From Hymenobacter sp. (lineage in GTDB: Bacteria > Bacteroidota > Bacteroidia > Cytophagales > Hymenobacteraceae): DNA of 34,524 nt. Under the pieces are notes generated by a model. It was not told the DNA's origin, did no database searches, and worked only from the letters and a program-made list of their open reading frames with translations. The stretch is from the NCBI GenBank assembly GCA_025354605.1, contig JANXMN010000209.1:1-34524 (forward strand), in the 5' to 3' direction. Positions 13,324-30,775 of this stretch are shown piece after piece (within the stretch, counting starts at the first letter, position 1; each line of letters opens with the position of its first letter). The position numbers were made by a program, and so were the translations under genes.

Positions 13324-15753
13324 ATGAAAACGCGCCTCGTCAGCTGCCTGCTTTTCTTCTTGTGGACTGCCGGCTGGAGCGCGCGGGCTCAGGGCGTGGA
13401 GGTGCGGGGCGTGGTACGCACCGAAGCCGGGCAGCCCGTGGAATTTGCCACGGTGGTGCTGCTGCAGGCGGCCGATTCGACCAGCAGCGCCCAGGGCACC
13501 GTGGCCGATGCCACCGGGGCCTTCGTGCTGCCCGGCGTAGCACCGGGAGCCTACCGGCTGCGGGTGTCGTTTATTGGGCTACAGGCGCGCACGCAGGCGC
13601 TGCTGGTGCGGGCCGGCGAGGTGCCGGCCCCGGTGGTGGTGCAGCTGGCCGCCGCCACGGCGCAGCTGGCCGAAGTGAAGGTAACGGCCAACCGGCCCCG
13701 CATTACGCAGCTGCCCGACCGCTTGGTGATGGACGTGGCCAACACGGCCCTGGCCACCGGCTACACGGCCCTGGAAGTGCTCGAAAAAGCCCCCGGCGTG
13801 TACGTCGACCCCCGGTCGGAGAGCATTTCGCTGAATGGCAAGGGCGCCCTGGTTATCGTGGATGGCAAGCGCACCTACATGTCGGGGGCCGACCTGGCAG
13901 TGTTTCTGAAGGGCCTGGCCAGCCAGGAGCTGCAGAAGGTAGAGCTCATTACCAGCCCCGGCGCGAAGTACGACGCCGAGGGCGCGGGCGGCATCGTGAA
14001 CATCATCACCAAAAAGAGCCTGCTCGATGGCACCCGGGGCACCCTTACGGTGGGCCTGGGCGGCACCACCAACAGCCGGCAGACCGGCGGCTTCACGCTC
14101 AACCACAAGCACGGCCCCGTGGCCCTGTACACGGGCTACACCGTGGGCGGCCGCCAGACCACGGCCTCGGAGCAGGCCCAGACCGACTACCTGGCCGATG
14201 GCGTGCCCACGGCCACCCACCTGCTGACGGCCACTTCCACCACCCGCCAGCTGGCCCACAACGTGAAGGCCGGGCTCGACTGGCAGTTGAGCCCCCGCAC
14301 GGCCCTCAACCTGTACCTGCGCGGCCTGCGCACCGACCGCACCAACCCCACGCTGGCCACTACCCGGCTGCTGCTCTACCAGGGCCGGCCCGACTCGACG
14401 CTGACCAGCGATACCCGCACCACGTATTTCTCGACGCAGTACGCCGCCAACCTGGGCCTGCGGCAGGTGCTCGACACCCTGAGCACGCTGAGCGCCGACC
14501 TGGACTACTCGCGCTTCGAGGCCGCCAGCGACAACCTTATCAGCAACGAGTTCGGGACCGAGCAGGGCTCCGTGCCGGGCCGCAGCCTGTACCTGCGCAA
14601 CCACCTGCCCACCACCATCAACATCGTGGCCGGGCAGCTCGACTACGAGCGGCGGCTGCCCGTCGGCACGCTGGCGCTGGGGGCCAAGCACAGCTACGTG
14701 ACCTCGGCCAACGATGCGCGCTACGAGCTGCGGCAGGGCGACGTGTGGGGGAACGATGCCCGCCGCACCAACTACTTCACCTACCAGGAAAACATCACGG
14801 CCGCCTACGCCACCTTCGCCGGCAAGCTGCACGGCCTCGACTACCGCCTGGGCCTGCGCCTGGAGCAAACGGCCTCGCTGGGCCAGCTGCGCACCACCGA
14901 CGAGCGCAACGCCCGCAACTACCTCAACCTGTTTCCGTCGGTGCTGCTGAGCCAGGCCGTGGGCAAGCACGACTTTCTGAGCCTGGCCTACGGGCGGCGC
15001 ATCCAGCGCCCCAGCTACCAGTCGATGAACCCTTTCATCTACTTCCAGGATGTGTACACCTACTCGCAGGGCAGCCCGTTTCTGCGGCCCGAGTTCACCC
15101 ACGCCTTCGACCTGACCTATACCCTGAACAGCACCTACGTGCTGGCCGTGGGCTACTCGCAAACCTCCGACGTAATTGCCTGGGTGACGCAGCGCGAAAC
15201 GCCCGAGTCGCGGGTGTCGCAGACGCGCGCCCAGAACCTGAGCAGCCAGCGCCAGTGGTCGCTCACGGCCACGCTACCGTGGTCGCCGTGGAAGTGGTGG
15301 TCCATTTCCAGCTCGCTGAATGCCAATTACACCACCTACCTGCAGCCGGGCGTGGCCAACGCGCCCCGCACCATGCAGGGCGTGTCGGGGGTGGGCAGCG
15401 TGTCCAACGACTTTACGCTGCCCGGCAACTGGCACCTGAGTGCCTCGGCCTACGTGCAAAGCGCCCGGCCCGGTGGCGTTACCCGCCAGCTGGGGCAGCT
15501 GTCAGCCAACCTGGGGGCGCAGAAGAAATTCATGCAGGACCGGCTGGCGCTGCGCCTGATATACAACGACGTGCTGCGCACGGCTCGCGCCGTCACGATT
15601 CAGGAGTTCGACAACCTGCGCGGCCGCGACACCTACCGCTGGGACTCCAATTTTTTCCTGGTGTCGCTCACCTACCAGCTCGGCAACCAGAAGGTGAAAG
15701 CCGCCAACAAGAACCATAACGTGACGCAGGATGAAGAAGGACGCATCAAATAG
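13324..15753 (+). CDS. Outer-membrane beta-barrel / TonB-dependent receptor-like protein with CarboxypepD-like N-terminal domain
   Basis: Signal peptide; VEVRGVVRTEAGQPVEFATVVL carboxypeptidase-regulatory-like domain; plug-like LPDRLVMDVANTAL...VIVDGKRTYMSG...AEGAGGIVNIITKK; long C-terminal beta-rich region. Confidence 0.9.
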   Translation: MKTRLVSCLLFFLWTAGWSARAQGVEVRGVVRTEAGQPVEFATVVLLQAADSTSSAQGTVADATGAFVLPGVAPGAYRLRVSFIGLQARTQALLVRAGEVPAPVVVQLAAATAQLAEVKVTANRPRITQLPDRLVMDVANTALATGYTALEVLEKAPGVYVDPRSESISLNGKGALVIVDGKRTYMSGADLAVFLKGLASQELQKVELITSPGAKYDAEGAGGIVNIITKKSLLDGTRGTLTVGLGGTTNSRQTGGFTLNHKHGPVALYTGYTVGGRQTTASEQAQTDYLADGVPTATHLLTATSTTRQLAHNVKAGLDWQLSPRTALNLYLRGLRTDRTNPTLATTRLLLYQGRPDSTLTSDTRTTYFSTQYAANLGLRQVLDTLSTLSADLDYSRFEAASDNLISNEFGTEQGSVPGRSLYLRNHLPTTINIVAGQLDYERRLPVGTLALGAKHSYVTSANDARYELRQGDVWGNDARRTNYFTYQENITAAYATFAGKLHGLDYRLGLRLEQTASLGQLRTTDERNARNYLNLFPSVLLSQAVGKHDFLSLAYGRRIQRPSYQSMNPFIYFQDVYTYSQGSPFLRPEFTHAFDLTYTLNSTYVLAVGYSQTSDVIAWVTQRETPESRVSQTRAQNLSSQRQWSLTATLPWSPWKWWSISSSLNANYTTYLQPGVANAPRTMQGVSGVGSVSNDFTLPGNWHLSASAYVQSARPGGVTRQLGQLSANLGAQKKFMQDRLALRLIYNDVLRTARAVTIQEFDNLRGRDTYRWDSNFFLVSLTYQLGNQKVKAANKNHNVTQDEEGRIK

Positions 15754-16981
15754 CCCCGCCGCGCTGGCCGACCCCGACCCCGCGGCCCTGGCCACCGCCC
15801 CCCTGGCGCGGCTGGAACAGATTGCGGCCCGGCTGCAGGCCCCGCTGCCGCCGTTTGGCCGGCCGGGCTTTTCGGGCGGGCAGCTGGGGCCGTTCCTGTT
15901 TCTGTTCGCCTACGCCGCCCTCATCGAAGGGGCTGAGGAGGCCGCGGCGGCCGCCCAGCGCCAGCTGCAGGCCGCCATTCAGGACTTTCTGGGGCTGGCT
16001 CCCGGCCTGACGTATTACCGCGAGCTGGCCGAGTTCGGCAGCGTGCTGCTCTACTTGCAGGAGCAGGGCTACCTCGACGAGAGCGTGGAGCCGTTGCTGG
16101 AGCAGGTCGACCGCCGGGCCGTGCACGGGCTGGAGGCGCTGGCCGCCCAGCAGCAGTTCGACCCTTTTGTGGGCTATCTGCCGCTGGCGCACTACTTTTT
16201 GTGGCGCCACGCGGCGGCGGCTAGCCCCGGCAGTACGGCCATGCTGCGCCTAGCCGTGGATACGCTGCTGCGCGACTACCAGCCCGGGGCCGACGGCACC
16301 ACGGGTTTCTGGTTTTCGGGCCTGTTTGGCCAGCGCCAGATTTACCTGAGCTGGAGCCACGGGCAGGCCGCTATGATGCTGTTTCTGACGCAGCTGCTGG
16401 CCGCCGACCTGCCCTACCGCCGCCCCGAGCTGCGGCAGGTGCTGGCCGGGGCCGCCCGCTACTGCCTGCTGCCGCACGCCCACACCGGCCGCAACCGCTA
16501 CCCCGACATCGTGGACCAGCCCGGGGCCTCGAACACGCTGAACCTGTGCTACGGCGACCTGGGCATTGGTTTTGCCCTGCTGCAGGCCGCCCGGGCCCTG
16601 GCCGATGCCGACCTGGACCGGCACGCCCACCACACCCTGGCCCTGGCCGCCGCCCGCCGCGACCCCGCCGCGTGCAACGTGCACGATGCCTCGTTCATCT
16701 ACGGGGCCAGCGGCAACGCCATGCTGTTCAAGGCCCTGCAGCAGGATTTTCCGGAGCTGCCGGGGTTTGGCGAAGCCGCCGCCTACTGGTATGGGCAGGC
16801 GCAGGCCCTGTGCCAGCATCCCGGCCAGGTGGCCGGCTTCCGGGGGCACTACAACCAGCAGGTGCCCAGCGCGCACTACTCGCTGTTTGAGGGCCTGGCC
16901 GGCGTGGGCTTGGCCCTGCTCGAATTCGAAGTTGATTCCCTTCACTTGCTGCCCTTGTTGGGCTACCCCGCTTTCTCATGA
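15731..16981 (+). CDS. LanC-like protein with degenerate zinc site
   Basis: LanC-type repeats: YLSWSHGQAAMM, LNLCYGDLGIGFALL, YSLFEGLAGVGLALLE. The position of the canonical CHG motif reads FIYGASG. Confidence 0.82.
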   Translation: MKKDASNSPAALADPDPAALATAPLARLEQIAARLQAPLPPFGRPGFSGGQLGPFLFLFAYAALIEGAEEAAAAAQRQLQAAIQDFLGLAPGLTYYRELAEFGSVLLYLQEQGYLDESVEPLLEQVDRRAVHGLEALAAQQQFDPFVGYLPLAHYFLWRHAAAASPGSTAMLRLAVDTLLRDYQPGADGTTGFWFSGLFGQRQIYLSWSHGQAAMMLFLTQLLAADLPYRRPELRQVLAGAARYCLLPHAHTGRNRYPDIVDQPGASNTLNLCYGDLGIGFALLQAARALADADLDRHAHHTLALAAARRDPAACNVHDASFIYGASGNAMLFKALQQDFPELPGFGEAAAYWYGQAQALCQHPGQVAGFRGHYNQQVPSAHYSLFEGLAGVGLALLEFEVDSLHLLPLLGYPAFS

Positions 16982-18198
16982 CCACGGACACCCTTGTTTC
17001 GCCCCAGGCCGCTACCATCGCGCAGGGTCTGCGCATTCTGGCCCAGATGGCACCCCCCGCCGTAGCCGACCTGTCGCTCTTCACCGGTAAGCTCGGCCAC
17101 GTGCTGCTGTATGCCTACGCCTACAAGCACAGCGGCGCCGACGCCCATTGGCAGCGCCTGACCGAAACCCTGGACGACGTGCTGGCCCAGCTGCAGCCGT
17201 CCTCGTCGGCCCGCCTGCTCACGCAGCCGGGCCTGCTGCCCAATCTGGCAATGGTGCTGCAGGTGCTGCGTACCGACGACATTGCCGACATCGAGCTGGG
17301 CGAAGAAACCCTGACGCAGTTCGACGAGGTGGTGGGCAAGCAGGCGCTGGCCTACATCCGGGGCCGCAACATCGATTTCCTGTACGGGGCCACCGGGGCG
17401 CTGCACTACCTGGGCACCCGGGCCGCCGGGCGGCCGGTGGTGGAAGCCACCCTGCGCGACCTGCTGGCCGCGCTGCTCGAAACGCGGGTGGAAGACGAGC
17501 GGGGCATTCGCTTTTTCAACGCCCACATCAACCACCTCAACGGCAATACCGACATCAACCTGGGGCTGGCCCACGGGCACTGCGGCCTGCTGCTGGTGCT
17601 GCTGCAGCTGCACGAGGCCGGCCTGCTGCAGGATGAAATCGCGCCGCTGGCCGGGCGCATGGTCGACTACCTGCTGAGCCTGGAGCTGCCGCCCGAGCCC
17701 GAAAAAGGCCGGGTGTCGTTTTTCCCGGCCCGCCACGAAGACGGCCGGCCCCTGCACGACCCCCTGAACCGCCAGGCCTACAACAACCGCATGGGCTGGT
17801 GCTACGGCGACCTGAACGTGGTGCAGGTGCTGCACCAAGCCGCGCGGATGCTGGGCCGCCCCGAGCTCGACGCCCTGGCTTGCCGGGTAGGCGCGCACAC
17901 CTGCACGCGCCGCGCCGAGTTCGACTCGGGCATCGACAGCGCGCATCTCTGCCACGGCTCGGCCAGCCTGGCCCTGTACTACCGCCAGCTGTATGCCGCG
18001 CAGCCGCTGCCCTGCTACCGCGAGGCCCACGCCTACTGGAAGCAGGAAACCCTGGACCGGCTGCCCGCTGCCTACGAGCAGGGCGACGAGGCATTTCAGG
18101 CCTCGGGCCTGCTCATGGGCCTGCCCGGCCTGCTGCTCTGGCTGATTACCGAAGAGCTGGGCGAGCCGGTGGCCTGGCCGCAGCTTTTTCTGCTGTAG
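16978..18198 (+). CDS. lanC: Lanthionine synthetase C family protein (LanC-like cyclase)
   Basis: NLGLAHGHCGLLLVLLQL, GWCYGDLNVVQVL, HLCHGSASLALYYRQL: both Cys ligand motifs and His present; 4-nt ATGA overlap with the upstream gene. Confidence 0.9.
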   Translation: MTTDTLVSPQAATIAQGLRILAQMAPPAVADLSLFTGKLGHVLLYAYAYKHSGADAHWQRLTETLDDVLAQLQPSSSARLLTQPGLLPNLAMVLQVLRTDDIADIELGEETLTQFDEVVGKQALAYIRGRNIDFLYGATGALHYLGTRAAGRPVVEATLRDLLAALLETRVEDERGIRFFNAHINHLNGNTDINLGLAHGHCGLLLVLLQLHEAGLLQDEIAPLAGRMVDYLLSLELPPEPEKGRVSFFPARHEDGRPLHDPLNRQAYNNRMGWCYGDLNVVQVLHQAARMLGRPELDALACRVGAHTCTRRAEFDSGIDSAHLCHGSASLALYYRQLYAAQPLPCYREAHAYWKQETLDRLPAAYEQGDEAFQASGLLMGLPGLLLWLITEELGEPVAWPQLFLL

Positions 18199-18251: not shown

Positions 18252-19199
18252 ATGAAAGACTTAGCCATTGGACTGCTGGATTTTGGCGTGCGCCGCCTGT
18301 CGATGAACAGCCTGCTGCGCGTGACCGACCTGCTCGACTACGCCGCCCGGGCCGACCAGCTGGGCTTTTCGCGGCTCTGGCTCAGCGAGCACCACATAGG
18401 GTCGGCGCGCCAGGCCTGGGGCAGCCCCACCGTGCTGCTGCCCCTGCTGGCGGGCATGACCAGCCGCATTCGGGTGGGAGTGGCCGGCGTGCTGCTGGGC
18501 ATTCACCAGCCCTACCACGTGGCCGGCGACTACAAGATGCTGCACAACCTGTTCCCGGGCCGCATCGACCTGGGGCTGGCCAATGGCGGCGTGATGCCCA
18601 GCGTGGCCGAGCTAGCCACCGGCGTGGCCGGGATGAACATGCCGCAAGCTTTTGCGGATAACCTGGAAAAGCTGTTTTTCTGCCTGCGCCAGGAAGATGA
18701 GATGGCCAAGCTGGGCACCGTGCTGCCCCCGTTTCGCGGGTCGGTGCCCGACACCTGGGCCCTCACCACCAACATGGGTAAAGCCCTGCCGCGGGCGCTG
18801 CAACACGGCATGAACCTATCGCGCTCCATCTTTCACAAGGGCGCCGACCGGGAGTATCACAAGGCTGCCATGCAGGAGTTCCGCGAGGAGTACCGGGAGC
18901 GGCACGGCAAATACCCGCGCACCAACCTGGTGGTGGCCGGGGCCGTGCACCACACCACGGCCAAGGCCAAGGCGGCGGCGGCCCCCGTCGAGAGCGGCTA
19001 CGACTACAACGTGGTGGGCACGCCGGCCCAGTTTCACGAAACCCTGCTGCAGTTTCAGGAAGACTATGGCTACGACGAAATCATTATTCAGAATGTGGCC
19101 CTGCGGCCCAAAGACCGCGCCCTGGCCCTGGAGCTCTGGAGCGAAATGTTCGACCTGAAAAACCGCGCCATGCTTCCCCTCACCAACACGGTTGCCTAA
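18252..19199 (+). CDS. LLM (luciferase-like) class flavin-dependent oxidoreductase
   Basis: LGFSRLWLSEHHIGSARQAWGSPTVLLPLLAGMTSRIRVGVAGVLLGIHQPYHVAGDYKMLHNLFPGRIDLGLANGG; ATG at 18252 chosen within the longer ORF. Confidence 0.9.
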   Translation: MKDLAIGLLDFGVRRLSMNSLLRVTDLLDYAARADQLGFSRLWLSEHHIGSARQAWGSPTVLLPLLAGMTSRIRVGVAGVLLGIHQPYHVAGDYKMLHNLFPGRIDLGLANGGVMPSVAELATGVAGMNMPQAFADNLEKLFFCLRQEDEMAKLGTVLPPFRGSVPDTWALTTNMGKALPRALQHGMNLSRSIFHKGADREYHKAAMQEFREEYRERHGKYPRTNLVVAGAVHHTTAKAKAAAAPVESGYDYNVVGTPAQFHETLLQFQEDYGYDEIIIQNVALRPKDRALALELWSEMFDLKNRAMLPLTNTVA

Positions 19200-19322: not shown

Positions 19323-21509
19323 ATGTCTGCTTTCCCCTATTACCGGCAGCTGGAGACCATGGACTGTGGCCCCACCTGCCTGCGCATGATTGCGCGCTTC
19401 TACGGCAAAAATTTCAGCCTCGAAACCCTGCGCCACAAAACCCGGCGCAGCCGCAGCGGCGTGTCGCTGCTGGGCATCAGCAAGGCGGCCGAGCAGATTG
19501 GCTTCCGCACCGTCGGGGCCAAGGTGAGCTATAGCGCGCTGGAAGGCACGGCCAATCTGCCCTGCATCGCGCACTGGAACCAGGACCATTTCGTGGTCAT
19601 CTACAAAATCAAGCGCGGGCGGGTGTACGTGGCCGACCCCGGCCGCTCGCTGCTCTCGTACCCGAAAAAGGAGTTTCTCGAAAAGTGGCAGATAGCCCAA
19701 ACCCCCGCCGAGGAAGGCATTGTGCTGTTCGTGGAACCCACGCCTTCGTTCTACGCGGTGGAGGAAGAAATCGACTCCTCGATTGGGGTGGCCAAGATTG
19801 TGGCCTACCTGCAGCGCCACCGCAAGTTGTTCTGGCAGCTGTTGCTGGGCCTGCTGGTGGGGGCGCTTATTCAGGGCCTGCTGCCATTTTTTACGCGGGC
19901 CATCGTCGACATCGGCATCAGCACGCGCGACGTGCGCTTCATCTACACTATTCTGGCCGGGCAGCTGCTGCTGTCGGTGGGCCAAACGGCGGTGGAGTTT
20001 ATCCGGGGTTGGATTCTGCTGCATATCAGCACGCGCATCAGCATCGCCATCCTGTCCGACTTTCTGATGAAGCTGCTACGGCTGCCGCTGTCGTTTTTCG
20101 ATGCCACCATCACCGGCGACATCATGCAGCGCATCAACGACCAGCGGCGCATCGAGTCGTTTCTCACCGGCACGCTGCTCAACACCCTGTTTGCGGTGAT
20201 GAGCCTGCTGGTGTTCGGCACGGTGCTCTTCAGCTTCAGCCGGCCCATTTTCGTCATCTTTCTGGCCGGCAGCCTGCTCTACATGGGCTGGGTGCTGTTT
20301 TTTCTGCGTTTCCGCAAGAAGCTTGACTACAAGCGCTTCGACATCGCCAGCCAGTCGCAGAACAATATTATGCAACTGGTGGCAGGCGTGCACGAAATCA
20401 AGCTCAACGACTGCGGCAGCCACAAGCTCTGGGAGTGGGAGCGCATTCAGGCCAAGCTGTTTCACTTCAACACCGAGTCGCTCTCGCTGAGCCAGTACCA
20501 GCAGGTGGGCGCGTTTTTCCTCAACCACACCAAAAACATTCTCATCATCTTTTACGCGGCGCAGGCTGTGCTGCAGGGCACGCTGTCGCTGGGCGAGATG
20601 CTGGCCATTCAATTTATCGTGGGGCAGCTCAACCTGCCCGTCGAGCAGCTCATTCAGTTCAGCCAGAGTGCGCAGGATGCCAAAATCAGCGTCGACCGCC
20701 TCAACGACGTGCACCGCGTGGCCGACGAGGAGCCCGAAGACCAGCTGCTGCTCACCCACCTGCCCGACGACAAAACCATTTCCCTGCGCGACGTGGGCTT
20801 CACCTACCCCGGGGCCGGCAACCGCGCCGTGCTCCAGGGCCTCAACTTCGATATTCCGCAGGGCAAGATAACGGCCATCGTGGGCGACAGCGGCAGCGGC
20901 AAAACCACCATCCTCAAGCTGCTGCTGAAGGTGCAGGTGCCCGAAACCGGCCGCATTGCCATCGAAGACACCGACTACAACGCCATTTCGCACGCCGCCC
21001 TGCGCAAAGACTGCGGCGTGGTGATGCAGGACGGCTACATTTTCTCCGACACTATTGCCAACAACATCATGGTGAGCAGCGAGGAGAAAAACCCCGGTCG
21101 CCTGCTGCACGCCCTACGCATGGCCAACATCGAGCAGTTTGTGAAAGACTCGCCCCTGGGCCTCAATACCAAGATTGGGGCCGACGGCAACGGCGTGAGT
21201 CAGGGCCAGAAGCAGCGCATTCTAATTGCCCGGGCCATCTACAAAAACCCCAGTTACCTCTTCCTCGACGAAGCCACCAACGCCCTGGATGCCAACAACG
21301 AAAAGGTCATCATGAGCAACCTCAACCAGTTTTTTGAGGGGCGCACCGTGGTGGTGGTGGCCCACCGGCTGAGCACCGTGCGCAACGCCGACCAGATTAT
21401 CGTGCTCCAGAAGGGCAAGGTAACTGAGCAGGGCACCCATACCGAGCTGGTGGCCCGGCAGGGGGCGTATTTTCACCTGGTGCGCAACCAGCTCGAACTG
21501 GGCAACTAA
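19323..21509 (+). CDS. C39 peptidase domain-containing ABC transporter (bacteriocin export/leader cleavage)
   Basis: C39: LETMDCGPTCLRMIARFYGK, HWNQDHFVVIYKI...VADPG; ABC ATPase: GDSGSGKTT, GVSQGQKQRILIARAI, YLFLDEATNALD. Confidence 0.95.
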   Translation: MSAFPYYRQLETMDCGPTCLRMIARFYGKNFSLETLRHKTRRSRSGVSLLGISKAAEQIGFRTVGAKVSYSALEGTANLPCIAHWNQDHFVVIYKIKRGRVYVADPGRSLLSYPKKEFLEKWQIAQTPAEEGIVLFVEPTPSFYAVEEEIDSSIGVAKIVAYLQRHRKLFWQLLLGLLVGALIQGLLPFFTRAIVDIGISTRDVRFIYTILAGQLLLSVGQTAVEFIRGWILLHISTRISIAILSDFLMKLLRLPLSFFDATITGDIMQRINDQRRIESFLTGTLLNTLFAVMSLLVFGTVLFSFSRPIFVIFLAGSLLYMGWVLFFLRFRKKLDYKRFDIASQSQNNIMQLVAGVHEIKLNDCGSHKLWEWERIQAKLFHFNTESLSLSQYQQVGAFFLNHTKNILIIFYAAQAVLQGTLSLGEMLAIQFIVGQLNLPVEQLIQFSQSAQDAKISVDRLNDVHRVADEEPEDQLLLTHLPDDKTISLRDVGFTYPGAGNRAVLQGLNFDIPQGKITAIVGDSGSGKTTILKLLLKVQVPETGRIAIEDTDYNAISHAALRKDCGVVMQDGYIFSDTIANNIMVSSEEKNPGRLLHALRMANIEQFVKDSPLGLNTKIGADGNGVSQGQKQRILIARAIYKNPSYLFLDEATNALDANNEKVIMSNLNQFFEGRTVVVVAHRLSTVRNADQIIVLQKGKVTEQGTHTELVARQGAYFHLVRNQLELGN

Positions 21510-21595: not shown

Positions 21596-22711
21596 ATGTT
21601 GGATAAGTCGAAGGGGTTGACGGCCCTGCTTTCCGGTACCAGCGCCAACAAGCGGGCGACGGTGCTGCTGCACATTGCCTTCTGGCTGGTGGCCTACAAC
21701 TGGTTCGTGTTTCAGAGCCGGTGGCTGAGCGGCAACCTGCACCAGGAGGCCACCACGCTCATGGCCCTCACGCGCAATGTGGTGGTGCTGGTTGTCTTCT
21801 ACCTGGTGTCCTATTGCATCAGTCCGCGCCGCTACGTGCGGCTCACCTGGCTGTTGGTGGTGCTGCTGCTGCTGTTTTCGGTGGTGGTGTACGGCTTGCT
21901 GTCGTACTACTTGCTCAACTACATCGATGTGGCGTACCCGGATATGCCGCCGTACTTTAAGAAAATGACGGCCAACATGTCGGCCCAGGGACCCTGGACG
22001 ATGTTTATCAACCTGGACGTGCTGTATTTTCACATCGTTCAGTTGATTATCGCGTTTTTCATCCCGTTCATCATCAAGGCGTTCCGGATTATCTTTCAGA
22101 CCCGCGTGCACAGCATTGCCCTGGAGAAAGACAACCTGAAGCTGGAACTGGACTTTCTGCGCTCGCAAATCAACCCGCATTTCCTGTTCAATACGCTCAA
22201 CAGCGTTTATTCCCTTATCGAGGACAAGGATAAGACAGCGGCTTCCATCGTGCTGTCGCTGTCGCACATGATGCGCTACGCCCTCTACGACTCGTCGTCG
22301 ACGGAGGTGGAGGTGGACAAGGAGCTGGCCTTCATTCAGAACTACGTCGAGATTCAGAGCATCCGGCACCGCCGCCGGCTCGACGTCGACCTCGACATTT
22401 CGCACCAGCTCGGCACCCAGCGCATTCCGCCGCTGCTGCTCATTAACTTTATCGAAAATGCCATCAAGCACGGCATCGACAAGCTGCTGAAAAAGGCCTG
22501 GATACGCATTCAGGCGTATCGCGATGACCAGGGCGCGTTTTGCTTCAGCGTCGTCAATTCCAAGCCCAGCCGCCCCGACGATGAGCACGTCGAGGGCATT
22601 GGCATCAAAAACACCCGCCGCCGGTTGAATATTCTGTACCCCAACGCGCACACGCTGCACATTCGCCAGACCGACACCCAGTACGAAATCATGCTCCGGA
22701 TATGGCAATAG
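21596..22711 (+). CDS. LytS/YehU-type sensor histidine kinase
   Basis: Several N-terminal TM segments; LRSQINPHFLFNTLNSVYSLIED; ATPase LLLINFIENAIKHGI. Confidence 0.93.
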   Translation: MLDKSKGLTALLSGTSANKRATVLLHIAFWLVAYNWFVFQSRWLSGNLHQEATTLMALTRNVVVLVVFYLVSYCISPRRYVRLTWLLVVLLLLFSVVVYGLLSYYLLNYIDVAYPDMPPYFKKMTANMSAQGPWTMFINLDVLYFHIVQLIIAFFIPFIIKAFRIIFQTRVHSIALEKDNLKLELDFLRSQINPHFLFNTLNSVYSLIEDKDKTAASIVLSLSHMMRYALYDSSSTEVEVDKELAFIQNYVEIQSIRHRRRLDVDLDISHQLGTQRIPPLLLINFIENAIKHGIDKLLKKAWIRIQAYRDDQGAFCFSVVNSKPSRPDDEHVEGIGIKNTRRRLNILYPNAHTLHIRQTDTQYEIMLRIWQ

Positions 22712-23439
22712 ACAAGCGGCTGACCTGTATTATCATCGACGACGAGCCGCTGGCTCAAGAGCTCCTCGAAAAGTATGCTTCGCGGCTGCCCTCGCTCGAG
22801 CTGCTGGCTATTTTCGACGATGCCGTGGAGGCGTTGAACGGCGTGGAAACCCTGCGCCCCGACGTGATTTTTCTGGATGTAAACATGCCCCAGATGACGG
22901 GCATCGAGTTCCTGCAAACTTTTGCGGCCTACCGGCCGGCGGTGGTGCTCACCACGGCCTATCCCGAATACGCCCTCGAAGGCTACGAGTACAACGTCAC
23001 CGACTTTATTCTGAAGCCCATCACGTTCGAGCGCTTCGCTAAGGCCCTCAACAAGGTGCGCGACCAGCTGCTGCCTCCCGCGCCGGCCCCGGTCCAGGCC
23101 GCCGACGCGCCCGATGGCAAGCGCATGCTGCTCATCAAGGAGAACAAGCGGTTTGTGCGGGTGGCCGTGGGCGACGTACTGTTTGTGGAGGGCATGAAGG
23201 ACTACCTGAAAATCCATACCACCAACAAGGTCATCATCACGCACATGACCATGACCAAGATGGAAAGCATGCTCGACGAGGCCAGCTTTTTGCGGGTGAA
23301 CCGCTCCTACATCGTGCAGAAAGCGGCCGTGCGGGCCATCAATGGCAACGTTATCGAAACCATCAACAACGTGGAGCTGCCCATTGGGGTGAATTACCGC
23401 GAGGTAATCCGCAAGATTACCGAGAAGGGCGTGCTGTAG
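22702..23439 (+). CDS. LytTR family response regulator
   Basis: Receiver: CIIIDDEPLAQELLEKY...VIFLDVNMPQMTGIEFL...ILKPITFERF; LytTR domain: VLFVEGMKDYLKIHTTNKVIITHMTMTKMESML...FLRVNRSYIVQ. Confidence 0.94.
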   Translation: MAIDKRLTCIIIDDEPLAQELLEKYASRLPSLELLAIFDDAVEALNGVETLRPDVIFLDVNMPQMTGIEFLQTFAAYRPAVVLTTAYPEYALEGYEYNVTDFILKPITFERFAKALNKVRDQLLPPAPAPVQAADAPDGKRMLLIKENKRFVRVAVGDVLFVEGMKDYLKIHTTNKVIITHMTMTKMESMLDEASFLRVNRSYIVQKAAVRAINGNVIETINNVELPIGVNYREVIRKITEKGVL

Positions 23440-23445
23440 GCCCGC

Positions 23446-23910
23446 CTACCGGGCCAGGAACTTGGCCAGCAGCGACTGCCGCCGCAGCATGATGCGGGCC
23501 GTGCCCGAAAACGACGGGTAGAGGGCCGCGCCGGCGAGCGGGGCCAGCGTTATCACCACCGGGTGCTGCTGCTGCCGGGCCGTGGGCTCCACCCGGAGCA
23601 CGCGGCCCGTAAGGCGGGTGTCGCCCAGCTCGTGCACCTGCAGCTGCACGGCCTGCCCCGGGCGCACGGCCGCGTACTGCTCGCGGCCAATGGTGCCCAG
23701 CGCCAGCAGGCGGCCCGGGCCGGCAGCAGTCGGCGGGGCGGCCGCCAGGGTCACGTCAGTCGTCACAAATTCCGGGTACTGAAACCACGCCGTGAAGCCC
23801 AGCAGCACCACGAGCAGGCCGATAATTATCAGGTTGCCCCAGCGTAGCACCAGGCTGGGCCGGGTGAGCATGATTTCCTTGATGTCGTTGTGGAGGTAGT
23901 TGTCAGACAT
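23446..23910 (-). CDS. Short HlyD-like membrane protein, possible truncated/minimal periplasmic adaptor
   Basis: MSDNYLHNDIKEIMLTRPSLVLRWGNLIIIGLLVVLLGFTAWFQYPEFVTTDVTL resembles the HlyD-type N-terminus; C-terminal LTGRVLRVEPTARQ...SGTARIML; overlaps the lanB stop by 8 nt. Confidence 0.72.
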   Translation of the reverse strand: MSDNYLHNDIKEIMLTRPSLVLRWGNLIIIGLLVVLLGFTAWFQYPEFVTTDVTLAAAPPTAAGPGRLLALGTIGREQYAAVRPGQAVQLQVHELGDTRLTGRVLRVEPTARQQQHPVVITLAPLAGAALYPSFSGTARIMLRRQSLLAKFLAR

Positions 23911-26900
23911 GGGCATAGCGGACGGTGGTTGGCGGGGAGGAAACGCCCTTGCGCATGGCGAGCTGGGCAGTGTAGTGCTTGTGCAGCAGGGTGTAGAGGG
24001 TGAGTTCGTGCTGGCGGGGCTGCGAGAGCACAAACCGGTTGAGGTACATGTGCACGTAGCTGGCCAGCAGGTCGAAGCCCTGGTCGGTGGCCAGGATGCC
24101 AGCGGGGTGCCGGGCCAGAATGGTGGCCACCGCCCCCGCCCAGCGCTGCCGTCGGTCGGCAAACTCCTGCACGGCTTCCTCAGTCTCAGTCGCTGCATCC
24201 TCGATGGGGTTCAGGAAGCGCAGTAGCTGGCGGCTCTCTTTCCGGTACTTGTCGTTGAGTTGCAGCTGCAGGCCCTTATCGCCGCGAAACTCCTGGAAAA
24301 ACCCGCGGCTGAGGCGCTCCAGCAGCTGGTGCTTGTCGGGCAGGGCCAGCCCAAAGTCAGTCAGCATCTCGTCGAGGCCGCGCAGGGCCAGCAGCCAGCG
24401 GTAGGTTTCGCCCTCGTCGCCGCCCAGCAGGTTCAGCACGCGGGCAGTGGCCAGGCTGTCGTGGCCAAACAGCTCTTCCGAGGTTTCAATGTTGTCGGCC
24501 CCGTAGCGTTCCAGCTCGCGCACGTAGGTGTCGAGCTGCACCTTGTGGAGGCGGCCCTGCGCCAGGGCCGGGGCCAGGGCCTCGTTCAGCTCGTGCAGCA
24601 GCGTGCCCAAATGCACGGCCGGCGTTTCGGCCAGCTGAAAACGCAGGCGCAGATGAAACTGCGGGTCGTTGTAGCGAATAAAGAACCACTGCCGGATAAT
24701 GCCCCGCGCCCGCCACTGCTCGGCCAGCGGCAGCACCACGGCGCACAGCAGCTGGTCAAGCGATTTGGTGCCGCCGTACAGCTTCAGGTAGGCCCACTCG
24801 CTGCCCGGCAGAAACTCCCGGGCCGGGAGCGCGGCGTTGGTCCGGGCGCTGCCGCCGGCCTGGGGCCGGCCCGCCGCGTTAAACAGCGGCAGCAGCACTT
24901 CGTTGCCGAAGCGCTGGCCCTCGGGCCCCACGAAGCAGCGCTCGGGCGTGGCCAGGTACTCGGTGAGGCGCAGCACCCCGGTCTTTTCGAGCTGTTGCAG
25001 CAGCAGCTGCCGCGCTGTCGGAAAGTCGCTGTCAATCAGCAGCTCGTTGTCGTGCTCGGTCAGGCAGAAGTAGCGGGGCAGGCCGTGCGTGGCCAGGTAG
25101 GCGCGCAGCTGTTCGTCGGTAACCGGGCCGGTAGCTTTGGCTCCCACCAGCAGCTCGCGCCGGATGCACCAGCGGGCTTTGGCTACGATAATGTTCTTAT
25201 ACTCCACGCGCGGCAGGAAGGCCTGCTCGTTCAGATTGCCCCAGCTCCAGCCGGTGCCCGAATAGAGGCGGTCCTTCTGCAGGTCGCACAAAAACCGGTA
25301 CATGGGCAAGCCGGTGGTGTAGTTGTGAGCCGTGGAGAGGCGCGGTATCACCTGCTTGCCGAGGCGGCGCGAACGCAGCACCACCCGCCCCTGCCGCACC
25401 GATACCAGCAGGTCGTGGGCCGGCAGCTGCTGGTCGGCCGGCACGGTGGCGGGGCTCAGAAACGGAATTTCGTAGGCGCGCAGGTTCGGCCGCATCAGAA
25501 TGTTGCCCACCCGGGCCTCGGGCAGGTGCACCACTTCGGCATACACCACCCCGTCGGTATCGGGCTCGGCGCGGCGCAGGGTGGCCCGCACGTCGGCCAG
25601 CAAGGCCTCGTCGCCGTAGCAGAAGCGGCCCAGCAGGTTGGCCGCCGACGGCCCCGAGCACACGCCGAGCGCAAACTGAAACTGCCCGGCATCGAGCTCC
25701 CGGGCCGATTCGGCCAGCAGCGAGCCGAAGGCGTAGAGGCTGGCCGGGGTGGCCGTACCCGCGTCGGGCTGCTCGTCGAGGCCGGCCAGGTCGGCGGTGG
25801 TCAGCGCCACCACGCGCGTCTCGTCGCGCAGGGCGCGGTGGTACAGGTCGTGGGCCAGCTGCACGCTTTTCTTCCAGCTGGCGGTGGGCGTGGTGGGTTC
25901 CGGGCGCGGACTGATGCCTTCGAGCACGGGCAGGTAGTCGCCGTGGCCGGGGCTGGCGTGCCCGTAGCCCACCCCCGATTCGTTGTCGAGGGCCAGCAGT
26001 AGCGGGACTTCCTGCTCTTCAAAGCGCGCGCTGAAATCTTTGGCGAAGCGGCCAAGGTCGGGTGGCAGCTGCAGGGTGCCCAGCCGGCACAGCTCGCCCA
26101 CCTGCCCGGCAATGGTGCCCACCACCGAAGCGGCCAGCTCGTTGCGCTCGGTGTTATAGAATAAGTCGGTTTGAATCAGGTCTTTCGAACCTGATGGGCT
26201 GTACGTGTCGCTTAGCAGCTGGTGCGTTTCCTGGAAGCTGGCTACCCCGCCAGTGGCCAGCAGAGCCAGCAGGCGGTGCAGCGGAACTAGGTCGGCGGCG
26301 GGCACTTTGCCCGCCAGGCGAGCGGGCAGCCCATCGAGGTACAGCTCGCCGGTGATGGTCGGCTCCAGCTCACTCATCAGGAGCTGCGAGTCAATCAGCT
26401 GGTGCAGATATGCCCGCGCCTCCTCGCCCGAAGCGGTGGGCTCGGCCTGGCACACCAGGGCCAGCAGGTCGGTAAAAGTGCTGCCGGCGGCGGCGGCGGC
26501 CAGCAGTCCGGTCAGGTAGCTGGTGGCGGGCACCGAAGTCAGGGTGTAGCTGCGGCGCTTGTTTTTGACGGTGAATTCGACGTAGCGGAACGTGTCGCCG
26601 GTCTGGTAAAGGCTGTTATTGGGGAAATAACGCAGGTTTTCGCGCAGCGCCGGCGAGGTCAGCAGCTCCTGCACCAGCTCGCTCACGTAGTTCATGTCAA
26701 GCCGCGAATGCTTGCGCAATGCCTGGTCAGCAAACCGGATATCGGTTTGGGCACCCACCTGGCCCCGGGCGCACCCTGCAAACAGGCCGTAGGGCGTGCT
26801 GCGGGTACTCATGCGCAGCACGTACTTGTACAGCGTCAGGGCCAGCTTGTCGGCCTGTTTGGCCGAGTCGGTGCCGCCGCTGGCCAGCGCTTTCAGCAGC

Positions 26901-27118
26901 TCGGCGTGCAGCGCTGGCGAAGCCGTATAAATGGCTTCCTGGAGCAGTGGGTCGGCAAAAAAAGTCAGCAGTCGGGGCAGCAGCCCCTGCGGCGCTTCCT
27001 GCGTATCGGCGTGCAGCTGCCACACCGTTTGCACGGGCAGCAAAGGCCGCCGGAGCACATAGAAGCTTTCGGGTTCGAGTTGCAACGGCAACGCTGGCGG
27101 AGCGGAGGAAAGGCGCAT
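23903..27118 (-). CDS. lanB: Class I lantibiotic dehydratase, LanB-type, with SpaB_C/thiopeptide-type C-terminal domain
   Basis: 1071 aa; RMSTRSTPYGLFAGCARGQVG, LDMNYVSELVQELL, RVEYKNIIVAKARWCI; C-terminal EWAYLKLYGGTKSLDQLL and WFFIRYNDPQFHLRLRF elimination-domain-like motifs. Confidence 0.93.
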   Translation of the reverse strand: MRLSSAPPALPLQLEPESFYVLRRPLLPVQTVWQLHADTQEAPQGLLPRLLTFFADPLLQEAIYTASPALHAELLKALASGGTDSAKQADKLALTLYKYVLRMSTRSTPYGLFAGCARGQVGAQTDIRFADQALRKHSRLDMNYVSELVQELLTSPALRENLRYFPNNSLYQTGDTFRYVEFTVKNKRRSYTLTSVPATSYLTGLLAAAAAGSTFTDLLALVCQAEPTASGEEARAYLHQLIDSQLLMSELEPTITGELYLDGLPARLAGKVPAADLVPLHRLLALLATGGVASFQETHQLLSDTYSPSGSKDLIQTDLFYNTERNELAASVVGTIAGQVGELCRLGTLQLPPDLGRFAKDFSARFEEQEVPLLLALDNESGVGYGHASPGHGDYLPVLEGISPRPEPTTPTASWKKSVQLAHDLYHRALRDETRVVALTTADLAGLDEQPDAGTATPASLYAFGSLLAESARELDAGQFQFALGVCSGPSAANLLGRFCYGDEALLADVRATLRRAEPDTDGVVYAEVVHLPEARVGNILMRPNLRAYEIPFLSPATVPADQQLPAHDLLVSVRQGRVVLRSRRLGKQVIPRLSTAHNYTTGLPMYRFLCDLQKDRLYSGTGWSWGNLNEQAFLPRVEYKNIIVAKARWCIRRELLVGAKATGPVTDEQLRAYLATHGLPRYFCLTEHDNELLIDSDFPTARQLLLQQLEKTGVLRLTEYLATPERCFVGPEGQRFGNEVLLPLFNAAGRPQAGGSARTNAALPAREFLPGSEWAYLKLYGGTKSLDQLLCAVVLPLAEQWRARGIIRQWFFIRYNDPQFHLRLRFQLAETPAVHLGTLLHELNEALAPALAQGRLHKVQLDTYVRELERYGADNIETSEELFGHDSLATARVLNLLGGDEGETYRWLLALRGLDEMLTDFGLALPDKHQLLERLSRGFFQEFRGDKGLQLQLNDKYRKESRQLLRFLNPIEDAATETEEAVQEFADRRQRWAGAVATILARHPAGILATDQGFDLLASYVHMYLNRFVLSQPRQHELTLYTLLHKHYTAQLAMRKGVSSPPTTVRYAHV

Positions 27119-27389: not shown

Positions 27390-27584
27390 TTACTCCTGCG
27401 TTGGCAGGCCCCGGCAGTTGACCGGGTTGCAGCTAAACGCCGGGCACGACGACTGCCCGCCCTGGGTGGTTTGTTCCGGCTGCTGCCCTCCGGCAATGGT
27501 ACTGAGTTGGTCATCATCGAGTTTGGCAATGATTTCGCGGTCCAGTAGCAAGATGCGGGATAGGGTGATTCGCTTTTTTTTCAT
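27390..27584 (-). CDS. Lanthipeptide precursor candidate A1 (divergent leader and core)
   Basis: MKKKRITLSRILLLDREIIAKLDDDQLSTIAGG-QQPEQTTQGGQSSCPAFSCNPVNCRGLPTQE: GG leader similar to A2-A5, Cys/Ser core. Confidence 0.82.
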   Translation of the reverse strand: MKKKRITLSRILLLDREIIAKLDDDQLSTIAGGQQPEQTTQGGQSSCPAFSCNPVNCRGLPTQE

Positions 27585-27611: not shown

Positions 27612-27815
27612 CTAGCCGTTGCAGGAGCAGGCCTGGCACGAATTAATCGTGGGGAAGAAGTCGGCGGCTTCCTGCTGAACGCCACCGCCGTTGCACGTAT
27701 TGGTGCCGGCAGCCAGGCCGCCTTCGAGCGTGCCGAGCTGGTCTTCGTTGAGCTTGGCGATGGTTTCCTTGTCGAGCGACAGGGCATTATCGAGTTTGAT
27801 GGCTTTCTTTTTCAT
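27612..27815 (-). CDS. Lanthipeptide precursor A2
   Basis: MKKKAIKLDNALSLDKETIAKLNEDQLGTLEGG-LAAGTNTCNGGGVQQEAADFFPTINSCQACSCNG. Confidence 0.9.
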   Translation of the reverse strand: MKKKAIKLDNALSLDKETIAKLNEDQLGTLEGGLAAGTNTCNGGGVQQEAADFFPTINSCQACSCNG

Positions 27816-27869
27816 GGGGAGGGTTGAGGTGTAAGTGATTTGAGAGAAAAAAGTCTTGGCAATTATCCG

Positions 27870-28067
27870 TTACACGGCATCAAACACGTTGCAGGAGCAT
27901 GCACTACACGATGCGTTAGTTTGTTGAAAATCACTGCCGTTACAGGTAAGGGTAGTTGGTGAGGCCAGGCCGCCTTCGAGCGTATTGAGTTGCTCTTCGT
28001 TGAGGCGCGAGATGGTTTCCTTATCGAGCGAGAGTGAGGTTTCGAGCTTGATGACTTTCTTCCTCAT
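27870..28067 (-). CDS. Lanthipeptide precursor A3
   Basis: MRKKVIKLETSLSLDKETISRLNEEQLNTLEGG-LASPTTLTCNGSDFQQTNASCSACSCNVFDAV. Confidence 0.9.
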   Translation of the reverse strand: MRKKVIKLETSLSLDKETISRLNEEQLNTLEGGLASPTTLTCNGSDFQQTNASCSACSCNVFDAV

Positions 28068-28104
28068 CGCAGAGATAAGAACTGGGGCGAACGAAGAAAA
28101 TGAC

Positions 28105-28305
28105 CTAGCCTACCGGCCCGTTGCAGGAGCAAGCATCGCAGGAGGGGCCGGTTTGGAAGCCTTCCTCGGCCAGCCGGGCGCAGGTATTGGTGCCGCCGGC
28201 AGCCATGCCGCCTTCGAGTTGGCCCAGCTGCTCTTCGTTGAGCCGCGAGATGGTCTCCTTGTCGAGCGACAGCGAGTTTTCGAGTTTAATGACTTTCTTT
28301 TTCAT
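28105..28305 (-). CDS. Lanthipeptide precursor A4
   Basis: MKKKVIKLENSLSLDKETISRLNEEQLGQLEGG-MAAGGTNTCARLAEEGFQTGPSCDACSCNGPVG. Confidence 0.9.
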   Translation of the reverse strand: MKKKVIKLENSLSLDKETISRLNEEQLGQLEGGMAAGGTNTCARLAEEGFQTGPSCDACSCNGPVG

Positions 28306-28338
28306 ACCAAGGAAAGCAGATGCGGTTGCGGTAATGAA

Positions 28339-28542
28339 TTAATGATTGCAGGAACAAGCCTGGCACGAAGCAATCGTACCATTATCGAGGGCGGCGTCCT
28401 GCAAACCGGCGGCGTTACAGGTGTTGGTGCCGCCGGCAATCATGCCGCCTTCGAGCGTGCTGAGCTGGTCTTCGTTGAGCTTGGCGATGGTTTCCTTGTC
28501 GAGCGACAGGGCATTATCGAGTTTGATGGCTTTCTTTTTCAT
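28339..28542 (-). CDS. Lanthipeptide precursor A5
   Basis: MKKKAIKLDNALSLDKETIAKLNEDQLSTLEGG-MIAGGTNTCNAAGLQDAALDNGTIASCQACSCNH; internal ATG at 28542 chosen by alignment with A2-A4. Confidence 0.9.
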   Translation of the reverse strand: MKKKAIKLDNALSLDKETIAKLNEDQLSTLEGGMIAGGTNTCNAAGLQDAALDNGTIASCQACSCNH

Positions 28543-28651
28543 GGGGAGGGTTGAGGTGAAAGATGAAAAAAACGGGAAATAAAAGTCAGCGGTACGGGCC
28601 GGCACCGGGCGCTGCTTTGTGGGAGCGGAAGCCGCAAATGGCTCCGCAATG

Positions 28652-28858
28652 CTATTGGCGGGCCGTAGTTGGCCGGGCCTGTAAATGCTGAAGGGCTTCG
28701 TCGTCCTCAATCCACCAGTAGGTGTTCTCCGGCTTTATCTCGGCAGGCTTACCACCGAAAAAGTGGTCCATTTCGACGCTGGAAAGCTGGTCGGTGGCAG
28801 CAATAGATTTTGCCGCTTTGCTCGTTAAAAAATTGAGCGCCCGCTTGATGGATTGCAT
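28652..28858 (-). CDS. Small peptide with GG-type leader but no Cys
   Basis: MQSIKRALNFLTSKAAKSIAATDQLSSVEMDHFFGG-KPAEIKPENTYWWIEDDEALQHLQARPTTARQ; same strand, just upstream of A5. Confidence 0.6.
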   Translation of the reverse strand: MQSIKRALNFLTSKAAKSIAATDQLSSVEMDHFFGGKPAEIKPENTYWWIEDDEALQHLQARPTTARQ

Positions 28859-29420: not shown

Positions 29421-29897
29421 CTAAAATTTAGCCATTGTCTGCGTGACGGCATTCGCGAAGTCGTTATAAGTATACGGCTTGGTCAGTAGTTGAACGTGAG
29501 GGATGCTGACCTGAGCGACGGATTCAGGGGGGAATGCCGACGTAATAATTATGTTAGAAAAATGGGCCGCGAACAACCTCATTTCCGGGCTTATCCGAAA
29601 GTCGTTGGAGGGATTGTCCAGTAAATCCAGAAATACAATGTCCACGTCCGGTAATTCCGAAGGCGAGGTAATAGTTTCTATCAGCCATTTTATTTCGAGC
29701 CCCACGAAACGGTTGATATATTTTACCAATAACTCCTGCGCCAGATATTCATCTTCGATTATTCCGCAAGTAAACACGTGGTGGTTGGGGGAATAGTGAA
29801 AATTAAACGATGGGTAGATAGTAACCGGTGAGAGAGTACACTTCTCACATCTGCTCAGGAAGCAGAAAGGCTCAGAAAAGAGCCCTAGCGATGGCAA
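29421..29897 (-). CDS. Stand-alone response-regulator receiver domain protein (start uncertain; GTG near 29777 possible)
   Basis: CGIIEDEYLAQELLVKYINRFVGLEIKWLIETITSPSELPDVDIVFLDLLDN...LLTKPYTYNDFANAV parallels the receiver of the 22702..23439 regulator; no output domain. Confidence 0.7.
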   Translation of the reverse strand: MPSLGLFSEPFCFLSRCEKCTLSPVTIYPSFNFHYSPNHHVFTCGIIEDEYLAQELLVKYINRFVGLEIKWLIETITSPSELPDVDIVFLDLLDNPSNDFRISPEMRLFAAHFSNIIITSAFPPESVAQVSIPHVQLLTKPYTYNDFANAVTQTMAKF

Positions 29898-30155: not shown

Positions 30156-30296
30156 TTAAAGCGTCTCGCAGAGGGGCGTTGAAGTAGTCATGTGCAGCAA
30201 GGCATGGCCTATTGCCGATGCCGGAGTGGTAGTCAACTGCGAAACAACTTCCTTGTAGAAAGGCAGCTTGGCGGTAGTAGAAAGTTTCTTTTTCAT
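30156..30296 (-). CDS. Small Thr/Ser-rich peptide, possible orphan RiPP precursor
   Basis: MKKKLSTTAKLPFYKEVVSQLTTTPASAIGHALLHMTTSTPLCETL; N-terminus resembles the MKKK...LDKETIxxL leaders, but there is no GG. Confidence 0.45.
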   Translation of the reverse strand: MKKKLSTTAKLPFYKEVVSQLTTTPASAIGHALLHMTTSTPLCETL

Positions 30297-30775
30297 ATTC
30301 GATGAATGAGAAAAATGTGGAAAAATGAAGTGAACCAATTCGATTCGCAGGTAAAGCAACGATGCAGAAAAATATAAATCGTCGATTTTCGACTAATTGA
30401 GGGAAGTCTTCGACGTTTCGAGTTGGCACAGTGCAGCTACTATCCGGTGGCAGCCATGTTTTTACTGATTTTTCCTGCTGATTATCAGCATTCAACATGA
30501 TTTTTGCCCGTGGAATCGGTTCCTAGATTTGAATTTGCGAGTGAGCATGGGCCGTTCGTATTCTGCCGCGCGGGGCACCAGGTTACATAGCGCCCCGCGA
30601 AGCGCTTCATCCCACCACTTTCGCAAACGGGGAAATCCGGGCATCAACCGCCCCCGCCAATATTTCGCGAGCAGTGAATTGGCAGTTGCCTCACCGGCCT
30701 TGTGCCAGCGCAAACGCTTGGCCAGGTCGGAATCAGGGACGGGTAATGATGCGCGAGTAGCTGCTCGGCTGGGCC

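Follow-up and report, generated by a model that had tools for sequence, protein, structure and literature searches.

Comparison with described class I lanthipeptides

In the biosynthesis of class I lanthipeptides, LanB dehydrates serine and threonine residues of the core peptide to Dha and Dhb, and LanC joins cysteine thiols to them as thioether rings. For class I clusters of Bacteroidota, the leader motif LxLxKx5L has been described together with a double glycine (GG) and a C39 peptidase (Walker et al. 2020, PMC7268733). RuiA of Runella limosa and ChmA of Chryseobacterium, both from Bacteroidota class I systems, were produced in E. coli carrying three thioether rings after seven dehydrations, and are served by one LanB and one LanC according to the paper's description (PMC9993889). 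The pinensins of Chitinophaga pinensis are class I lanthipeptides of the same phylum with a split LanB (PMC7268733). A structural study stated that the zinc ligands of the cyclases are strictly conserved outside class III (PMC10604976); the class III enzyme ThurKC, a fused lyase-kinase-cyclase, has a LanC fold without zinc ligands in its cyclase domain and has lost the catalytic His212 of NisC (Asp667 in ThurKC; PMC10604976).

The window (the whole stretch of 34,524 nucleotides analysed, from a Hymenobacter sp., contig JANXMN010000209.1) has the same leader motif, GG, C39 exporter, LanB and LanC as the Bacteroidota L1a class I lanthipeptides (NF038153, PMC7268733), but of the two only the window has a fixed S-C-x-x-x-S-C unit and a tandem of a zinc-less LanC (LanC1) with a second LanC (LanC2) and a luciferase-like (LLM) oxidoreductase. 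Its LanB is fused, which places the locus outside the pinensin family. LanC1 resembles the cyclase domain of ThurKC in lacking zinc ligands, but it stands alone, keeps His212 and is encoded in a cluster with LanB; it has 416 aa with LANC_like as the sole match above cut-off and no kinase domain, so that it is not a class III LanKC. The locus is interpreted here, with a probability of about 0.85, as encoding a family of class I lanthipeptides whose cysteine frame is under selection and which both LanC proteins serve.

Five precursor peptides

The precursor genes lie on the minus strand. Four of them are intact orfs of 65-67 aa between 28542 and 27612: A5 (28339-28542, 67 aa, core MIAGGTNTCNAAGLQDAALDNGTIASCQACSCNH, S-C-x-x-x-S-C unit at 28348-28368), A4 (28105-28305, 66 aa, core MAAGGTNTCARLAEEGFQTGPSCDACSCNGPVG, unit at 28123-28143), A3 (27870-28067, 65 aa, core LASPTTLTCNGSDFQQTNASCSACSCNVFDAV, unit at 27891-27911) and A2 (27612-27815, 67 aa, core LAAGTNTCNGGGVQQEAADFFPTINSCQACSCNG, unit at 27621-27641). 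Their nearly identical leaders fit MKKKxIKLxxxLSLDKETIxxLNExQLxxLEGG, and their cores have [T]x[T]C close to the start, a variable middle and SCxACSCN close to the end. The preliminary description had recognised a family of four precursors with these constant leaders, variable middles and fixed ends, all of which are confirmed, but it overlooked a fifth, A1 (27584-27390, 64 aa), with a second type of core (...QSSCPAFSCNPVNCRGLPTQE) in which SCPAFSC occupies 27429-27449. The fixed C-terminal SCxACSC is therefore a property of A2-A5, and the element common to all five precursors is S-C-x-x-x-S-C.

The curated class I lanthipeptide leader family NF038153 (lant_leader_L1a) is matched beyond its cut-off by all five, including the divergent A1 (E=5.8e-9); the values for A2-A5 are 2.9e-12, 4.5e-12, 8.8e-14 and 9.3e-13 (a range of 9e-14 to 5e-12). 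The matches are not attributable to chance, because no other place in the entire 5.5 Mb genome matches the family. Each precursor joins an L1a leader (LxLxKx5L) to a core with serine or threonine and cysteine, and A1-A5 are new members of the Bacteroidota class I lanthipeptides; a class I product is very likely, since genes for LanB, LanC and a C39 protein adjoin the precursors. The nisin-type lipid II motif SxxxCTP(G/S)C was found in none of the five cores.

A leader-like small peptide ending in TTSTPLCETL is encoded at 30156-30359 (-) of the window beside a receiver-domain protein (29421-29897, minus strand). Relatives are found near clusters at loci L035, L037, L078, L079, L103 and L105, some of them barely below the NF038153 cut-off.

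Conservation of the cysteine frame

The alignment covered eleven distinct precursors of A2 type, drawn from four Hymenobacter genomes, one of them Hymenobacter frigidus (G035, locus NZ_BMGY01000083.1). In the core, Cys40, Ser58, Cys59, Cys62, Ser63 and Cys64 are invariant, Thr37, Thr39, Ala61 and Asn65 are almost invariant, and the middle has no conserved column among these eleven sequences. A threonine four residues ahead of the second cysteine, found in the window and in genomes G061 and G120, was dropped as a part of the frame as it is missing in H. frigidus. The family therefore presents variable segments flanked on either side by a fixed cysteine-bearing end, its cysteine frame being conserved but not its middle; the suggestion that a conserved framework surrounds a diversified middle was borne out by comparison of homologs. 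The three other Hymenobacter clusters each encode a single A1 ortholog, with the pattern SSCxAFSCNPx[ND]C.

The comparison of A2 with A5 separates the history of the leader from that of the core. The leaders differ at one of 99 nucleotides, and so appear to have been recently duplicated or homogenised; the middles are not alignable; and three of the eight codons of SCQACSCN differ, each synonymously, which indicates that the end of the core is kept by selection at the protein level. A 131-nt repeat, 96% identical, spans the leader and the sequence upstream of it in both A2 and A5 (27705-27835 and 28432-28562), the mark of a recent duplication or gene conversion.

Other genes of the cluster

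Upstream of A5 on the minus strand, a companion peptide (28652-28858; EMDHFFGGKPAE...YWWIEDD) is free of cysteine, has a double-glycine motif and keeps its position in G061, G120 and H. frigidus. It is followed on this strand by A5-A2, A1, LanB and a short HlyD-like protein. LanB (23903-27118, 1071 aa) is a full-length class I lanthipeptide dehydratase with glutamylation and elimination domains fused and both PF04738 and PF14028 complete (Lant_dehydr_N 1.3e-164, Lant_dehydr_C 8.5e-65). The HlyD-like membrane-fusion protein (23446-23910), for which the HlyD_3 match is weak and below cut-off, adjoins LanB in G061, G120 and H. frigidus as well.

The plus strand carries, in order, a TonB-dependent receptor-like outer-membrane protein, LanC1, LanC2, LLM, a C39 peptidase-ABC exporter, a histidine kinase and a LytTR regulator. 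The receptor-like gene (13324-15753), first in the operon and named from a weak TonB-receptor match, keeps this position in many LanC1 clusters. The exporter (19323-21509; Peptidase_C39 2.9e-33, ABC_membrane, ABC_tran) is expected to cut after GG and to export the product. The LytS-like sensor histidine kinase (21596-22711), with no NCBIfam match, is named from its neighbour and its conservation, and the LytTR-type response regulator (22702-23439) from BtsR/LytR-family matches; both have the same place in G061 and G120. The companion peptide, exporter, kinase and regulator resemble, by analogy, a double-glycine inducing-peptide circuit. GG peptides similar to the companion are also present in G227, G076, G124 and L089.

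Gene set and order are identical in G061 and G120, and the portion from precursors to LanB is found in H. frigidus too. A scan for sigma-70-type promoters near the precursors gave four matches, none convincing, and two of them are simply codons of the A2 and A5 leaders; the Bacteroidota promoter motif was not found upstream of the cluster.

Two LanC proteins

LanC2 (16978-18198, plus strand; LANC_like 5.8e-24) is a canonical zinc LanC (WCYGD ... LCHG, AHG) that aligns with the zinc ligands and catalytic histidine of NisC. Its ligands, Cys275, Cys325 and His326, are invariant across 13 orthologs. LanC1 (15731-16981, plus strand; LANC_like 3.1e-16) has lost two of the three ligands (LCYGD ... 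FIYG), with cysteine, isoleucine and tyrosine at NisC positions Cys284, Cys330 and His331, and is therefore not a zinc-dependent LanC by its residues; it also lacks the equivalent of the conserved Asp141. Its catalytic histidine (NisC His212) is retained and is invariant in an alignment of 21 LanC1 sequences. Since a PDB sequence search with LanC1 matched no LanC, the fold was checked with AlphaFold. The model (pLDDT 84.9, pTM 0.88) has the alpha/alpha toroid of LanC: Foldseek aligned it with NisC (2g02) at a TM score of 0.71, and the best matches were LanCL1/2.

Thirty-one LanC1 sequences, none with a complete zinc triad, form a single clade (support 100/99) that extends through Hymenobacter, other Cytophagales, Chitinophagaceae and further families of the class. 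To judge from its sequences, the clade is ancient and under selection. Gene decay was rejected as the cause of the LanC1 degeneracy because the dN/dS ratio between G061 and G120 is equal for the two proteins (0.114 for LanC1, 0.116 for LanC2) and the clade without the zinc triad is old. PF05147 profile searches detected no zinc-type LanC in ten genomes, mostly drafts, that have LanB, class I precursors and zinc-less LanCs (G298, G413, G063, G083, G082, G028, G051, G116, G599 and G797). The Hymenobacter genomes G063, G083, G082, G028 and G051 have clusters that encode a pair of LanBs and a pair of LanC-like proteins; both of the latter lack the zinc ligands, and the second has lost His212 as well (loci L052, L058-L061, L067-L068 and L075).

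The LLM flavin oxidoreductase (18252-19199, plus strand; Bac_luciferase 2.1e-24) is a candidate LanJC-type reductase or S-oxidase, and the odds are about even that it tailors remaining Dha and Dhb or the thioethers. LanC1 and a zinc LanC2 occur in tandem in 16 clusters, and in 16/16 an LLM gene is present and adjoins the gene of the LanC2 lineage, as it does in G599 and G797. The idea that LLM tracks LanC1 was rejected: LLM is absent from clusters with LanC1 only and follows its LanC2-lineage neighbour. Oxidation of a thioether to a sulfoxide, the reaction of GarO in actagardine biosynthesis, is a realistic alternative to reduction of Dha to D-Ala by an enzyme of LanJC type, if somewhat short of an even chance; membership in the LLM family (PF00296) is compatible with both reactions and the constant proximity to the LanC2-lineage gene in LanC1+LanC2 clusters speaks for it, but the lanthipeptide role proposed for the superfamily in print is LanJC-type reduction (PMC7268733). 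The birimositide cluster likewise includes a luciferase-like oxidoreductase, LanJC, but is a two-component cluster of Streptomyces (PMC7268733), whereas the LLM of the window is a candidate by PF00296 and position.

The S-C-x-x-x-S-C unit and ring formation

The unit was counted as [ST]Cxxx[ST]C in distinct cores. In a first, exploratory set it was found in 38 of 71 distinct cores from LanC1 clusters, representing 13 of 25 clusters (the exact unit is missing from 12), and in none of 83 cores from 21 clusters with zinc LanCs only; shuffled cores yielded about one. For a later sample, more genomes of the phylum and class were drawn by the LanC1 profile and their cores were inspected only afterwards. 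The unit was present in six of eight precursors of LanC1 clusters (all four of G599 and both of G797, but neither of the two of G610) versus 0/28 beside zinc LanCs. One of two cores in a further LanC1-clade cluster, that of G260, has it. Thus S-C-x-x-x-S-C was found only in sampled clusters with a LanC devoid of zinc ligands, and these clusters are related by descent and do not represent independent events, so that p-values calculated for the association exaggerate its strength.

The G797 core AQEGAAASCVLLSCNKQQ contains two serines and two cysteines in all, and therefore its non-adjacent thioether options are only Ser8-Cys14 and Cys9-Ser13. If both were closed, the first in the usual direction and the second in reverse, nested rings of opposite polarity would be predicted. 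Cytophagales precursors at L089, L108, G508 and G227 are built on an analogous plan, with a start of [ST]x[ST]C or similar, an acidic variable middle and an SCCxxSC end, and in one class I cluster of Chitinophaga solisilvae (L118) about 19 different precursors are encoded in a row.

In the proposed pathway, LanB would convert core serine and threonine to Dha and Dhb, the LanC cyclases would join cysteine thiols to these as thioether rings, the C39-ABC exporter would cleave after GG and secrete the peptide, and the kinase/LytTR pair would regulate the cluster. The association of S-C-x-x-x-S-C with zinc-less LanC points to zinc-free ring closure in class I lanthipeptides. On the strength of this co-occurrence, it is tentatively proposed that LanC1 may close the C-terminal S-C-x-x-x-S-C without the usual zinc site, and that zinc LanC2 may close the N-terminal T-x-T-C and other rings. 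That LanC1 is, more specifically, a zinc-independent class I cyclase that recognises S-C-x-x-x-S-C and closes a compact thioether pair is conceivable, but should be regarded as speculative. The "tight ring knot" previously imagined at the C-terminus is plausible, and A1, the S-C-x-x-x-S-C unit, the zinc-less LanC and the oxidoreductase, features that lay outside the preliminary description, bear on how C-terminal rings might form.

Instead, the products could be ordinary class I lanthipeptides in which LanC2 and its zinc close all rings and LanC1 is a pseudoenzyme, a scaffold that binds the leader, LanB or LanC2. With every zinc ligand in place, LanC2 could form all of the rings in the window, beside a LanC1 without equivalents of Cys330, His331 and Asp141. 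However, the ten mostly draft genomes in which profile searches found zinc-less LanCs alone have class I clusters, LanC1 is as constrained as LanC2 and keeps a His212 that an inert scaffold would not need, and its presence tracks the core motif; this explanation is a serious contender, yet a somewhat doubtful one.

A two-component lantibiotic with A1 as one partner and A2-A5 as the other is unlikely. One A1 type and two to four A2 types are indeed encoded in each of the four Hymenobacter clusters, but the lipid II motif is absent and two-component lantibiotics are typically class II. Disulfides in place of thioethers are very improbable: three or four cysteines are close together in precursors that are exported after GG cleavage, and LanB could spare the S-C pairs, but a full LanB is encoded beside every A2-type precursor, serine or threonine is fixed adjacent to cysteine, and the leaders are of class I lanthipeptide type.

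Significance of the LanC1 clade

Neither class I LanCs lacking zinc ligands nor the S-C-x-x-x-S-C unit was found described in the open-access literature, which was the scope of the search; measured against that literature, the pairing of a zinc-less class I cyclase with a core motif is a new variant. The statement that the ligands are strictly conserved outside class III (PMC10604976) is contradicted by these stand-alone class I LanCs, which form a clade under selection, lack the full zinc triad and are the sole LanCs in some genomes. The LanC1 clade is a simple system for asking how thioether rings close without metal, for which S-C-x-x-x-S-C is a short substrate for testing, and the natural set of A2-A5 reveals which core positions tolerate diversity.
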